Positions 30,964 through 34,775 of a stretch of 64,000 nucleotides of DNA are shown piece after piece. This DNA is from Actinoplanes xinjiangensis (GTDB lineage Bacteria; Actinomycetota; Actinomycetes; Mycobacteriales; Micromonosporaceae), in assembly GCF_003148685.1 (NCBI RefSeq), contig NZ_QGGR01000018.1, positions 62,001 through 126,000 on the forward strand. The letters run 5' to 3'. The stretch's first letter is position 1; each line of letters starts with the position of its first letter. Under the pieces are notes generated by a model, which worked only from the letters and a program-made list of their open reading frames with translations, did no database searches and was not told the DNA's origin. Position numbers and translations under genes: made by a program.

Positions 30964-31869
30964 TCACGGCACCGCGCGGCGCGCGGGCACCGGCACCCGC
31001 GACAGGTCCTCGGCGATCACCACCGGGCCGTCGAACTCCTTGCGAGCCTCGTCCAGGAAGCGGTCCGGTTCCGGATAGCGTTGCGAGAAGTGCGTCAGGA
31101 CCAGCATGCGTACGCCGCACTCGCGGGCGACCTCAGCGGCCTGACCAGCGGTGAGATGCCCGACCTGGGCGGCCAGCTCCGCATCCTCGGACAGGAACGT
31201 CGACTCGATCACCAGCATGTCCACACCCCGCGCCAGCTCGAACACGCTGTCGCACAGGCCGGTGTCCATCACGAAGGCGAAACTCTGACCGGGACGGGCC
31301 ACGCTCACCTGGTCGAGGGTGACGTCACCGAGCCGCCCGGTGCGCTGCAACTCCCCGACGGCCGGGCCGCTGATGCCGTGCTCGGCCAGCAGGGCGGGCA
31401 CCATCCGCCTCGCGTCCGGCTCGGTCAGGCGGTACCCGTACGTCTCGATGGGGTGTCGCAGGGGAAGGGCGGTGAGGCGCCCCGCGGACGTCTCCACCGC
31501 GAATCCGGCGCCCACCGGGCCCGGCACGATCTCCGCGTTGTCCCAGTAGCTGGTGGCGTGCCGCAGGCGGTCGAAGAACTCCTGCCCGCCGGCCGGGTAG
31601 TGGACGGCGACCGGGTGCGGCACCCGGTCGAGCGAGATCCGCTGAAGGACGCCGGGCAGGCCCAGGCTGTGGTCGCCGTGGAAGTGGGTGATGCAGATCC
31701 GCCTGATCGGGGTGACCGGGAGGCCGGCCATCAGCAACTGGCGCTGGGTGCCCTCACCCGGGTCGAAGAGGATCACCTCGTCGTCCCAGCGCAGCAGGTA
31801 GCCGTTGTGATTGCGGTGCCGGGTGGGCACCTGGCTCGCCGTGCCGAGCACCACCAGCTCGCGTGTCAC
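30964..31869 (-). CDS. rnz: Ribonuclease Z-like metallo-beta-lactamase nuclease
   Basis: 301 residues. A metallo-beta-lactamase fold nuclease related to tRNA 3'-endonuclease: the metal motif [11 protein letters not shown] gives HxHxDH at residues 62-67. [15 protein letters not shown] near 36-50 is diagnostic of the RNase Z family, and [12 protein letters not shown] and [12 protein letters not shown] supply the later metal-binding strands. GTG 31869 has GGGGAGAG a few bases upstream. A strongly folded element lies 22-92 bp upstream. Other MBL nucleases are possible, but the DPGEGTQRQ motif favours RNase Z. Confidence 0.9.
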
Positions 31870-31890
31870 CGACTCTCCCCGGATATGAAG

Positions 31891-31961
31891 CGACCCCTGG
31901 GGACTTCCACGCTCGCGAACGAGCGTGGTCCGGTCGGACAAGGCCGGATCCCCAGGGGTCG
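31891..31961 (-). promoter_or_regulatory. Three-way-junction palindrome in the rnz upstream region
   Basis: A perfect 13-bp outer stem (31891-31903 with 31949-31961, arms CGACCCCTGGGGA/TCCCCAGGGGTCG) encloses two adjacent hairpins. The first is 9 bp (31907-31915 with 31920-31928, loop CGAA). The second is 5-7 bp (31929-31935 with 31942-31948). Only three junction bases are unpaired. It ends 22 bp before GTG 31869. It could be an RNA leader element, a small structured RNA or a mobile palindrome; strand is uncertain because one wobble pair favours the plus-strand RNA. Confidence 0.6.
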
Positions 31962-32153
31962 GGTAGCTGTCTGGTATTCGCCGCAACCGCTGCCACACGG
32001 TCTCGACGTGTTTCAGAAACGAAGCTGTCGAGGACAGCGGCTAGCGGACAGCCACCTCACGAGTCCCGTTGCTATACAACTTCGGACCACCTCCCTTCAC
32101 GTGTACGGCTACGTTATCCAGCCCGCCGGGGGAGTGCCAACGAATTTGAATCA

Positions 32154-33107
32154 CTACAGGCGCGGGAATATCTGGGGGGAGTCGCTGGTGCTCTCCACCA
32201 GCAGCGAGGCCGGGCCGACGATCTGCGGATCAGGGACGCCGACGATCTCCCGGTCCTTGCCGGCGTAGTCGAAACGGTTCAGCACGTGCCGCATCGCGTT
32301 CAGCCGGGCCCGCTTCTTGTCGTTGCTCCTCACCACCGTCCACGGGGCGTCCGCGGTGTCGGTCCAGAAGAACATCGCCTCTTTGGCCTCGGTGTAGTCG
32401 TCCCACCTGTCCAGCGACTTCAGGTCCATCGGCGACAGCTTCCACTGCCGGACCGGGTCCACCTGGCGGATGGCGAAACGGGTCCGCTGCTCGCCCTGCG
32501 TCACCGAGAACCAGAACTTGACCAGCTTGATCCCCGAGCGGACCAGCATCCGCTCCAGCTCGGGAGTCTGGCGGAGGAACTCCAGATACTCCTTGCGGTC
32601 GCAGAAGCCCATCACCCGCTCCACGCCGGCCCTGTTGTAATAGGACCGGTCGAAGAGCACGATCTCCCCGGCGGCCGGCAGATGCTTGATGTAGCGCTGG
32701 TAATACCACTGGGTGCTCTCGCGCTGATTCGGCTTCTCCAGCGCGACGACCCGGGCGCCCCGCGGGTTCAGGTGCTCCATGAACCGCTTGATCGTGCCGC
32801 CCTTACCGGCGGCGTCCCGGCCCTCGAAGAGGATCAGCAGCCGCTCGCCGGTGTCCTTGCACCAGTTCTGAAGCTTCAGCAACTCGATCTGCAGCAGGCG
32901 CTTGTCATGGTCGTATTCCGAGCGGGGGAGCCGCTCGTCATACGGGTAGTCCTCGCGCCACGTGTCCACCGGCTGGCCGTCGGCGTCGATCAGACGGGGG
33001 TCGTCGTCCTCGTCGTCGACGACCCGGTACCCGGACAGCTCAGCGATCGGCCCCTCGTAGGGGTTGGTGGTCGCCTGGTCGAACTCGGATTCGGACTGCG
33101 ATTGCAT
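32154..33107 (-). CDS. ppk2: Polyphosphate kinase 2 family protein
   Basis: 317 residues. PPK2 uses polyphosphate to phosphorylate nucleotides. Walker A EGRDAAGKGGT at residues 95-105, the lid region GARVVALEKPNQRESTQWYY (20 residues), Walker B LFDRSYYNRAG at 151-161 and the following conserved WKLSPMDLKSLDRWDDYT are all present, with an acidic ~60-residue N-terminal extension. ATG 33107 is used; GTG 33113 is 6 bp earlier. The gene begins 45 bp after the CYTH-CHAD gene on the same strand, giving a polyphosphate-related pair. Confidence 0.95.
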   Translation of the reverse strand: MQSQSESEFDQATTNPYEGPIAELSGYRVVDDEDDDPRLIDADGQPVDTWREDYPYDERLPRSEYDHDKRLLQIELLKLQNWCKDTGERLLILFEGRDAAGKGGTIKRFMEHLNPRGARVVALEKPNQRESTQWYYQRYIKHLPAAGEIVLFDRSYYNRAGVERVMGFCDRKEYLEFLRQTPELERMLVRSGIKLVKFWFSVTQGEQRTRFAIRQVDPVRQWKLSPMDLKSLDRWDDYTEAKEAMFFWTDTADAPWTVVRSNDKKRARLNAMRHVLNRFDYAGKDREIVGVPDPQIVGPASLLVESTSDSPQIFPRL

Positions 33108-33152
33108 GACCACGATTCATACCCGCGAACGCCAAGACCACAACCGGCTTGA

Positions 33153-34685
33153 TCAGAACACTCGCCGAACTTTTCGCCGCCGCGCCGCCCTCGCCAGGGC
33201 CGGAACCCCCGCCAGCGCCTCCCGGCCCACCTGCTCCTGCCGGCCGTACAGCACCCCGAAGTGGAAACTGTCCCCACCCAGCTCGCGCAGCACGCCCCGG
33301 GCGATGTTCGAATCCTGGTAGTCGCCCAGCCCGTCCTGGAGGTTCGTCAGCGCCTTCACCAGCCGCTTCGCCGGCTCGCCCGCGCTCGGTGCGATCAGCT
33401 CCACCGCGTACCGGGCCTGCTTGAAGCCCTTGCGCGACTCGTGGATCTCCTCCTCCACGCCGGAGGCCAGCGCGGCGTCCAGCGTCGCGTCCGCCTTCGC
33501 CAGCACCTTCCGCGCCCGCTTCACCGGATCGGGGGTCCGCGGCGAGTCGCGATCCACCAGTTCGTCGATGCGGTCCAGCAGATCCAGGTAGCGGTCCGAC
33601 TCGAGTGCCTCGGCCAGTTCCGCCCGGCCGGTCCCGATCCGGTGCTCCAGGTGCGCCCGCACCCGCTGCGCCGTGTGCGCGAACTCCGGGCCGGCCTCGT
33701 CGACCAGGCCCAGCAGCTTCTCCTCCAGCACCTGCGGGTCACGCACGGCACCCAGCACCCCGGCCAGCCAGCGCAGCTCGTCGCGCACATCGTTCGCGTC
33801 GAACACCTTCTTGTACGTCTTCAGCGTGCTGCGCAGACGGCGGGTGGCGACGCGCATCTGATGGACGGCCCGGGGCTCGCCACGACGGGCGGCCGGGTCG
33901 TGGCTCAGGATGGCGTCGCGCTGCTCACGGGCGTACAGGATGACGGGGTTGACCTGCGGTTCCGGCTTCTTCGATCTGGCGGTGCCGCTCTTCGTGGTGC
34001 CGCTCTTCGCGGTGGCGCTCTTCGCGGTGGCGCTCTTCGCCGTGGTGCCGGGCTTGGTGGTGGCGCCGGGCTTGGTGGTGGCGCCGGCTTTTGCGGCGGC
34101 CAGCCGGTCGGCCAGCGCGCGGGCGACCTTCGACGGGCCCTGCGCGGGGCTGGCGCCGGCGTCGAACAGCCGCCGCTCGACCTCGTCGAGGACCGCCACG
34201 TCGCCGTCGACCAGCTCGACCTCGACCTCCTGCCAGACCGTCTGCGTCCCGTCCGAGTCGGCGGTCACCCGGTCCTGGGCCACCAGCGCAAGGGTGCGGC
34301 CGTCGGCATCCCGCAGCGGCGTCTCCACCCGGTGCGTGCGCAACCGGGCCACCGGCCCCAGCGGATGGCGGCGCACGATCGCCCGCACCAGCGCGGTCAG
34401 CTCGGCCGGCACCTCGTCGCCGTTCGCCGGAAGGCGGTGCTCGGTGCGGCCGTCGCCGTCGCCGGGCGTCTTCAGATGCCAGCCGGCGTCGTTGCCGCCG
34501 CTCCGCTGCCGAAGAGTCCGGCGATTTCTCATCAACCGGAGATCTTCGGTGTCGAAGTACGTGGCGTCGAGATCATGGGTCTCGGCACCGTCGACGCCGG
34601 CGATCCCGCCGACACCGACCAGGTCAGGAAGTTCGAACGTCTCGGGGACGTCGTATTTGCGCTCGGTCTCGGTGGCGATCTCCAC
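33153..34685 (-). CDS. CYTH and CHAD domain protein
   Basis: 510 residues. Residues 1-200 form a CYTH (triphosphate tunnel) domain opening with EIATETERKYDV (ExExK). A ~45-residue Ala/Thr/Lys/Pro repeat linker (units like GATTKPGATTKPG, then AKSATAKS) joins it to a CHAD domain (about 250-510) rich in His/Arg/Lys helices: AVHQMRVATRRLRSTLKTY, EIHESRKGFKQARYAVEL. CHAD domains bind polyphosphate and CYTH domains hydrolyse triphosphates. GTG 34685 is the best start: the ExExK motif should be near the N-terminus, although the upstream frame is open to 34745. Probably co-transcribed with ppk2. Confidence 0.92.
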   Translation of the reverse strand: MEIATETERKYDVPETFELPDLVGVGGIAGVDGAETHDLDATYFDTEDLRLMRNRRTLRQRSGGNDAGWHLKTPGDGDGRTEHRLPANGDEVPAELTALVRAIVRRHPLGPVARLRTHRVETPLRDADGRTLALVAQDRVTADSDGTQTVWQEVEVELVDGDVAVLDEVERRLFDAGASPAQGPSKVARALADRLAAAKAGATTKPGATTKPGTTAKSATAKSATAKSGTTKSGTARSKKPEPQVNPVILYAREQRDAILSHDPAARRGEPRAVHQMRVATRRLRSTLKTYKKVFDANDVRDELRWLAGVLGAVRDPQVLEEKLLGLVDEAGPEFAHTAQRVRAHLEHRIGTGRAELAEALESDRYLDLLDRIDELVDRDSPRTPDPVKRARKVLAKADATLDAALASGVEEEIHESRKGFKQARYAVELIAPSAGEPAKRLVKALTNLQDGLGDYQDSNIARGVLRELGGDSFHFGVLYGRQEQVGREALAGVPALARAARRRKVRRVF

Positions 34686-34775
34686 CCGTCCATGGTGCCT
34701 GTCCCGAGGGCTGGTGCACAGCGGTGTCTCAGGTTCGCCTGGCATCGTGATGGCCCGGCCAGTAAGGAGTGCTGC

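Follow-up and report, generated by a model that had tools for sequence, protein, structure and literature searches.

The palindrome at positions 31891..31961 of the window (the whole 64,000-nucleotide stretch of Actinoplanes xinjiangensis DNA analyzed here) is the 3' domain of a minus-strand small RNA belonging to the Ms_IGR-5 family and makes up the final third of that RNA. In an Rfam scan, the minus strand from 31885 to 32104 matched RF02471 (Ms_IGR-5, "Actinobacteria sRNA") over the whole model (1–184 of 184); the score is 102.1 bits, where the gathering score is 45. Judged from aligned sequences, the RNA resembles a miniature message in its 5' third, which consists of a block complementary to the 16S rRNA tail, a start codon, 12–14 codons and a stop, and this short frame is very likely translated. 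For identity and translation taken jointly, with a discount for the mechanism, we estimate a probability of roughly 0.7. The features involved are the following.

32154..33113, minus strand: polyphosphate kinase 2 gene (ppk2), upstream of the RNA (Pfam PF03976)
32135..32140, minus strand: putative -35 element TTGGCA, with an 18-nt spacer; conserved in upstream segments
32111..32116, minus strand: putative -10 element TAACGT, conserved as TANNN[TG]; the transcript would start near 32104
31885..32104, minus strand: Ms_IGR-5 (RF02471) small RNA, whole match (cmscan 102.1 bits, gathering score 45)
32083..32098, minus strand: stretch complementary to 16 contiguous bases of the 16S 3' tail (13 Watson-Crick and 3 G-U pairs)
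32084..32088, minus strand: 5' arm of helix P1, GGUCC, which would close a hairpin holding the start codon (no pair with double changes, weak support)
32062..32066, minus strand: 3' arm of P1, pairing with GGUCC
32041..32079, minus strand: small ORF with a TTG start, 12 codons and TAG, predicted peptide MYSNGTREVAVR; start, frame and stop conserved
32047..32056, minus strand: 5' arm of helix P2, GGUGGCUGUC, inside the small ORF (double changes in 4 of 10 pairs)
31962..31971, minus strand: 3' arm of P2, GACAGCUACC, just before the 3' domain, pairing with GGUGGCUGUC
31891..31961, minus strand: 3' domain, a three-way junction by fold energy and covariation, presumably a terminator or a stem protecting the 3' end
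30964..31869, minus strand: RNase Z-like metallo-beta-lactamase gene (rnz), downstream of the RNA (Pfam PF12706 and PF00753)

Every structural element that the first-pass annotation had read in the palindrome was found in the predicted fold. On the plus strand it forms a perfect 13-bp outer stem (31891..31903 paired with 31949..31961), whose arms are perfect repeats, a 9-bp hairpin with a CGAA loop at 31907..31928, and a second hairpin of 7 bp, which has 5 bp in the minus-strand structure; three bases are left unpaired at the three-way junction. The minimum free energy of the domain is -55.8 kcal/mol, compared with a mean of -29.8 for shuffled sequences (z = -7.56), and none of 200 shuffles folded equally well. 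The element lies as close to rnz as the annotation had said, at a distance of 21 nt from the likely GTG at 31869 rather than 22 bp.

The suggestion that the palindrome is a selected structured RNA was borne out by compensatory changes, both within the genus and across families. Among 30 distinct sequences from the genus, 96.5% of the cells in the 3' domain are paired, 10 of its 27 pairs show double changes, and the covariation score is 0.219, as opposed to 0.090 for shuffled and at most 0.079 for slid alignments. All five pairs of the middle 5-bp helix are invariant in these sequences, so that covariation neither supports nor contradicts that helix. Across several families, an alignment of 35 loci (hand-chosen, with one locus left out, and with helices based on the sequence of the window itself, a choice that favors them on percent paired) revealed double changes in 15 of the 28 pairs of P1, P2 and the outer stem taken together: 11 of 13 in the outer stem, four of ten in P2 and none of five in P1. 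The score for the three helices is 0.251, against 0.130 after shuffling and at most 0.075 after sliding.

Additional observations concern P2 and the strand. P2 arms pair with their own partners at -17.0 kcal/mol and with swapped partners at -14.4 kcal/mol (sd 2.7; 29 distinct arms), a difference that is only modest because the arms are conserved. The alternative helix of the Rfam consensus, which joins the ribosome block to the frame, is 95.7% paired and has zero double changes. Wobble cells comprise 29 G-U against 10 A-C, an excess that favors the minus strand as the RNA. The hairpin loop GUCC (within 31929..31948) is strongly conserved across families and is complementary to GGAC, which is conserved in the 5' hairpin; a contact between the two is possible. 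The fold prediction also pairs the terminal CUUCAU (31885..31890) with the 5' segment GUGAAG (32095..32100), whereby the RNA would be closed and the ribosome block partly covered.

The 5' block and the 3' terminal stem typical of RF02471 are both conserved in the locus alignments. About 20 nt are inserted relative to the Rfam consensus, mostly the 9-bp hairpin, which is missing from three mycobacterial-type copies. Rfam matches of the same DNA to miRNA and viral translation-enhancer families scored far under their cut-offs and were discarded.

To examine the distribution of the family, genomes were searched with RF02471 at E <= 0.001, using filters that lose weak matches. Within the genus, each of the 60 genomes gave a match. 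Genomes with a match numbered 88 of 101 in the family (85 exceeding the cut-off), 192 of 296 in the class (191 exceeding it) and 31 of 149 in the phylum (15 exceeding it), and no match occurred in the 14 control genomes of these searches. Five of the 13 family genomes that lack a match belong to a single genus. Apparent tandem copies in two genomes (L178 and L179) were rejected, each locus having one core; when L179 was read through, it proved to be one RNA with a long middle insertion that the model had split, and its 3' domain resembles that of the window. The core pattern and the short frame were also observed, among the matches listed, in five contigs labeled Acidobacteriota (L222, L225, L233, L257 and L269), and in four of these the predicted peptide has EVADC at its C-terminus. 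The Rfam model gave 50.8 bits for L225, a weak 28 bits for L222 and no match for the other three; these contigs are possibly misbinned.

Each genus genome contains one match, and the palindrome itself has one DNA match in its own genome of 10.8 Mb, which disagrees with the first-pass idea of a mobile palindrome; a mobile palindromic repeat of the REP or MITE type was rejected for want of dispersed copies within genomes. The strong GC-rich stem would fit an element with no role beyond that of a terminator or mobile palindrome, a reading that we regard as highly improbable: the stem is single copy and belongs to a 220-nt family match with a conserved promoter and 5' domain, its tail CUUCAUAUCC has no U-run directly after the stem of the kind seen in canonical intrinsic terminators, a terminator scan did not report the 31891..31961 stem, and the covariation of P2 and the outer stem contradicts such a sole explanation. 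As a part of the Ms_IGR-5 RNA, the palindrome most likely serves to terminate transcription or to shield the 3' end.

We then considered the region upstream of the RNA. Of 148 distinct segments, 139 have a TANNN[TG] hexamer 14–25 nt ahead of the GGAGG core, the distance being 17 or 18 nt in 127, and TTG stands 15–20 nt before this hexamer in 117 of the 148. At shifted control positions the corresponding values were 5% for the hexamer and 0.5% for TTG. A generic sigma-70 scan found no promoter at this place. The conservation shows that the Ms_IGR-5 RNA carries a promoter of its own, as far as a promoter may be recognized by its predicted elements.

The 5' block downstream of this promoter is complementary to most of the 16S rRNA tail, GGCTGGATCACCTCCTTTCT, a sequence that was found in 12 of 16 genomes tested and was not found in the draft assembly of the organism itself. 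With G-U pairs allowed, 15–20 contiguous bases of the tail can pair with the block in 99 of 100 distinct sequences, and 12 in the remaining one; as a background, 14,218 segments from the window were examined, and seven of them reach 12 pairs. Part of this match is due to selection, since the 100 sequences come from loci kept by a core regular expression of about ten letters that already match the 16S tail (it missed five of 155 loci). Part of the complementary block doubles as an arm of P1.

Such a block might act as a ribosome decoy, in which the RNA would hold 30S subunits by their anti-Shine-Dalgarno tail and lower initiation elsewhere, the frame being a by-product or a release device. The extent of the pairing potential relative to the background and the single copy with its own promoter are consistent with this possibility, and so are the ribosome-protected reads on MS_IGR-5 homologs in Mycobacterium abscessus and M. 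smegmatis described in PMC4974804; the same paper cautions that many classical non-coding RNAs also collect such reads. On the other hand, a pure decoy has no need of the start, frame and stop that are kept, and the GGUCC portion of the complement may be kept for P1. We consider the decoy unlikely.

The ribosome-protected reads also count in favor of translation. Further evidence for it comes from the frame itself, which was first suggested by the aligned 5' ends as a frame behind the purine-rich block. The loci compared were the best-scoring 30 each of the family and class searches, together with 20 more from the class, selected so as to represent diverse families, and 20 from the family with lower scores; they are not random draws. 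A pattern scan gave at least 120 further stretches, of which 80 were tested first and the other 40 afterwards. In the first set (150 loci, 116 distinct segments), a stop codon lies exactly five codons past a conserved GAG in all 116 segments, and 106 have an ATG, GTG or TTG start in that frame, 105 of them without an intervening stop. When CTG and ATT/ATC/ATA were also allowed, these numbers rose to 115 and 114. The other two frames passed the full test in 15 and 0 segments. The second set comprised the 80 listed pattern-scan loci, of at least 120, with 75 distinct segments; here the stop was found in 75 of 75, the full frame in 67 (74 with the rarer starts), and the other frames passed in 5 and 0, with a core pattern that ends before the stop, omits the start and fixes the core letters including those for E-V.

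When cut to 60 nt (111 and 75 distinct), the two sets share six segments. The pooled 178 distinct segments all contain the in-frame stop (TAG in 157, TGA in 13 and TAA in 8). An ATG, GTG or TTG start is present in 160 of them and any start including CTG/ATH in 175, whereas loops shuffled in 500 runs gave a mean of 19.1 (maximum 34) for the former and 40.9 (maximum 60) for the latter; the other two frames passed in 2 and 0 segments. The 40 further pattern-scan loci (of at least 120) were tested last, with the stop in 40, an ATG, GTG or TTG start in 32, a broad start in 40, and 0 and 0 in the other frames. The distance from the block to the GAG varies from 29 to 40 nt, and the start shifts yet remains in frame. 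There are also exceptions: 18 of the 178 segments lack ATG, GTG and TTG, three lack even the rarer starts within the spacing window, and one locus has no recognizable start. The Ms_IGR-5 RNA has, in any case, what is looked for in a dual-function sRNA, namely a conserved reading frame with a ribosome site.

The letters of the frame owe part of their conservation to P1, to P2 and to the complementarity with the 16S tail. When close pairs (which are not independent of each other) were compared over the early codons, replacement changes outnumbered silent ones by 29 to 7. The peptide thus shows no sign of purifying selection there, which suggests that translation is kept in this part rather than the peptide, whose sequence is probably secondary. 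This bears on another explanation, that the peptide of 12–14 residues is the product and the RNA a small messenger stabilized by its folds. The conserved start and stop and the recurring C-terminal pattern T-x-E-V-A/T/V agree with it, whereas the early residues vary, E-V is built into the search patterns and the same letters serve P2, so a peptide product seems improbable to us.

Next to the RNA in the window are rnz, with relatives in Micromonospora and Salinispora that are 66–69% identical, and ppk2, which adjoins a CYTH-CHAD domain gene farther upstream (32154..34745); the latter two are possibly a polyphosphate-related pair. Within the genus, rnz stands beside the RNA at 31 of 31 loci, starting 11–45 nt after it, and ppk2 at 30 of 31, the exception being a contig end. 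The gap leaves little room for a separate rnz promoter, and the RNA could accordingly be a 5' attenuator in this lineage, the palindrome being a terminator whose read-through would set the level of RNase Z. Outside the genus, rnz is found on the same strand at 9 of 47 other loci of the family and at 9 of 120 loci from the pattern scan, which had at least 120 matches (six among the first 80 and three among the other 40; at least 800 nt of downstream sequence were present in 101 of the 120). The six named ones are from Micromonospora (four) and Salinispora (two).

The same RNA is kept without rnz at 38 of the 47 family loci, at 111 of the 120 pattern-scan loci (of at least 120) and at all 29 loci that the phylum sample gave outside the genus. 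None of the latter 29 has either rnz or ppk2, and 27 of them were checked for 800 nt downstream. Moreover, at 15 loci processed with a crude ORF picker, the neighbors differ between groups and the next gene is on the opposite strand in 11. These data do not agree with the first-pass proposal of a leader specific to rnz, and an rnz-only leader was rejected as a general explanation; narrowed to this lineage, a leader acting on RNase Z is improbable, to about the same degree as a peptide product. The first-pass idea of autoregulation by RNase Z gained no support. The annotation had also expected covarying homologs upstream of rnz if the element were a leader and dispersed copies if it were a mobile repeat. 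Covarying homologs do precede rnz in the genus, although outside the genus the linkage is mostly absent, and dispersed copies did not appear. With only 11–45 nt between the two, lineage-specific read-through from the Ms_IGR-5 RNA into rnz is possible in the genus.

Considering the position of the helices relative to the frame, the likeliest mechanism, which we put forward as a tentative proposal, is a ribosome-gated switch. 30S subunits would bind the Ms_IGR-5 RNA tightly and translate the short frame, and a translating ribosome would open P2, since the 5' arm of P2 lies inside the frame. In this way the RNA might change its fold, life-time or activity with the state of translation, while the 3' three-way junction would terminate transcription or shield the 3' end; in the genus lineage, the RNA, lying just before rnz, may also act on that gene by read-through. 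More generally, and with slightly greater doubt, Ms_IGR-5 may be a widespread RNA of Actinomycetota, perhaps also of some Acidobacteriota, that would bind the ribosome through almost the entire 16S tail, be translated for only 12–14 codons whose sequence matters little, and serve as a gauge of ribosome status or hold ribosomes, with the act of translation and not the peptide as the signal.

Ms_IGR-5 reportedly stems from Li et al. in 2012, and its location in mycobacteria is presumably the neighborhood of Rv0813c. A small ORF with a transmembrane domain has been predicted in the 5' UTR of Rv0813c (PMC11133741), whereas a 12-codon frame is too short to span a membrane. Ms_IGR-5 is listed with RNA-seq support in Streptomyces lividans (PMC8079986) and as an sRNA unit in S. 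avermitilis (PMC8780764), ncMSMEG15794c is named as overlapping IGR-5 (PMC10454040), and an M. smegmatis Hfq paper is cited by PMC4109619. Coding sRNAs have been surveyed in a set including S. coelicolor (PMC5521070, in part), and Streptomyces sRNAs have been checked for conserved peptides (PMC3765725, in part). In open-licence papers, taken without their supplements, we found no function, frame or 16S match stated for Ms_IGR-5.

The RNA family is already cataloged, and the palindrome is ordinary once it is identified. The Rfam label does not include the short frame and the 15–20-base match to the 16S tail; should the proposed reading hold, an RNA that is widespread in mycobacteria, streptomycetes and related bacteria and is classed as "non-coding" becomes a ribosome-directed element.

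In comparison with RF02471 itself, the RNA of the window matches the whole model and has the same order from 5' block to 3' stem. The consensus lacks the insert of about 20 nt that makes the 3' end of the window RNA a three-way junction, and its pairing joins the ribosome block to the frame and leaves out P2, whereas the window RNA is drawn here with P2. Rfam labels the family an sRNA gene, while a conserved short frame was seen in the present comparison. Dual-function sRNAs such as SgrS/SgrT (PMC11133741, in part) are similar in being small RNAs with a short reading frame, but the frame of Ms_IGR-5 has 12–14 codons, its peptide is poorly conserved and its block is complementary to nearly the whole 16S tail. 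Extended Shine-Dalgarno pairing, shown in Staphylococcus aureus (PMC13009471, in part), likewise goes beyond the usual core; there it adds two pairs on an mRNA, whereas 15–20 contiguous pairs are predicted to be possible for Ms_IGR-5. The upstream ORFs of the topAI leader, which sense the state of the ribosome (PMC12121999, in part), resemble it in having a short frame that overlaps a helix which might be opened by a ribosome, although the next gene after Ms_IGR-5 is on the opposite strand in 11 of 15 loci. Ms1 of mycobacteria (PMC4191392, in part) is an analogy only, as a small RNA that binds core machinery: Ms1 binds RNA polymerase, whereas for Ms_IGR-5 the binding of ribosomes is a proposal.
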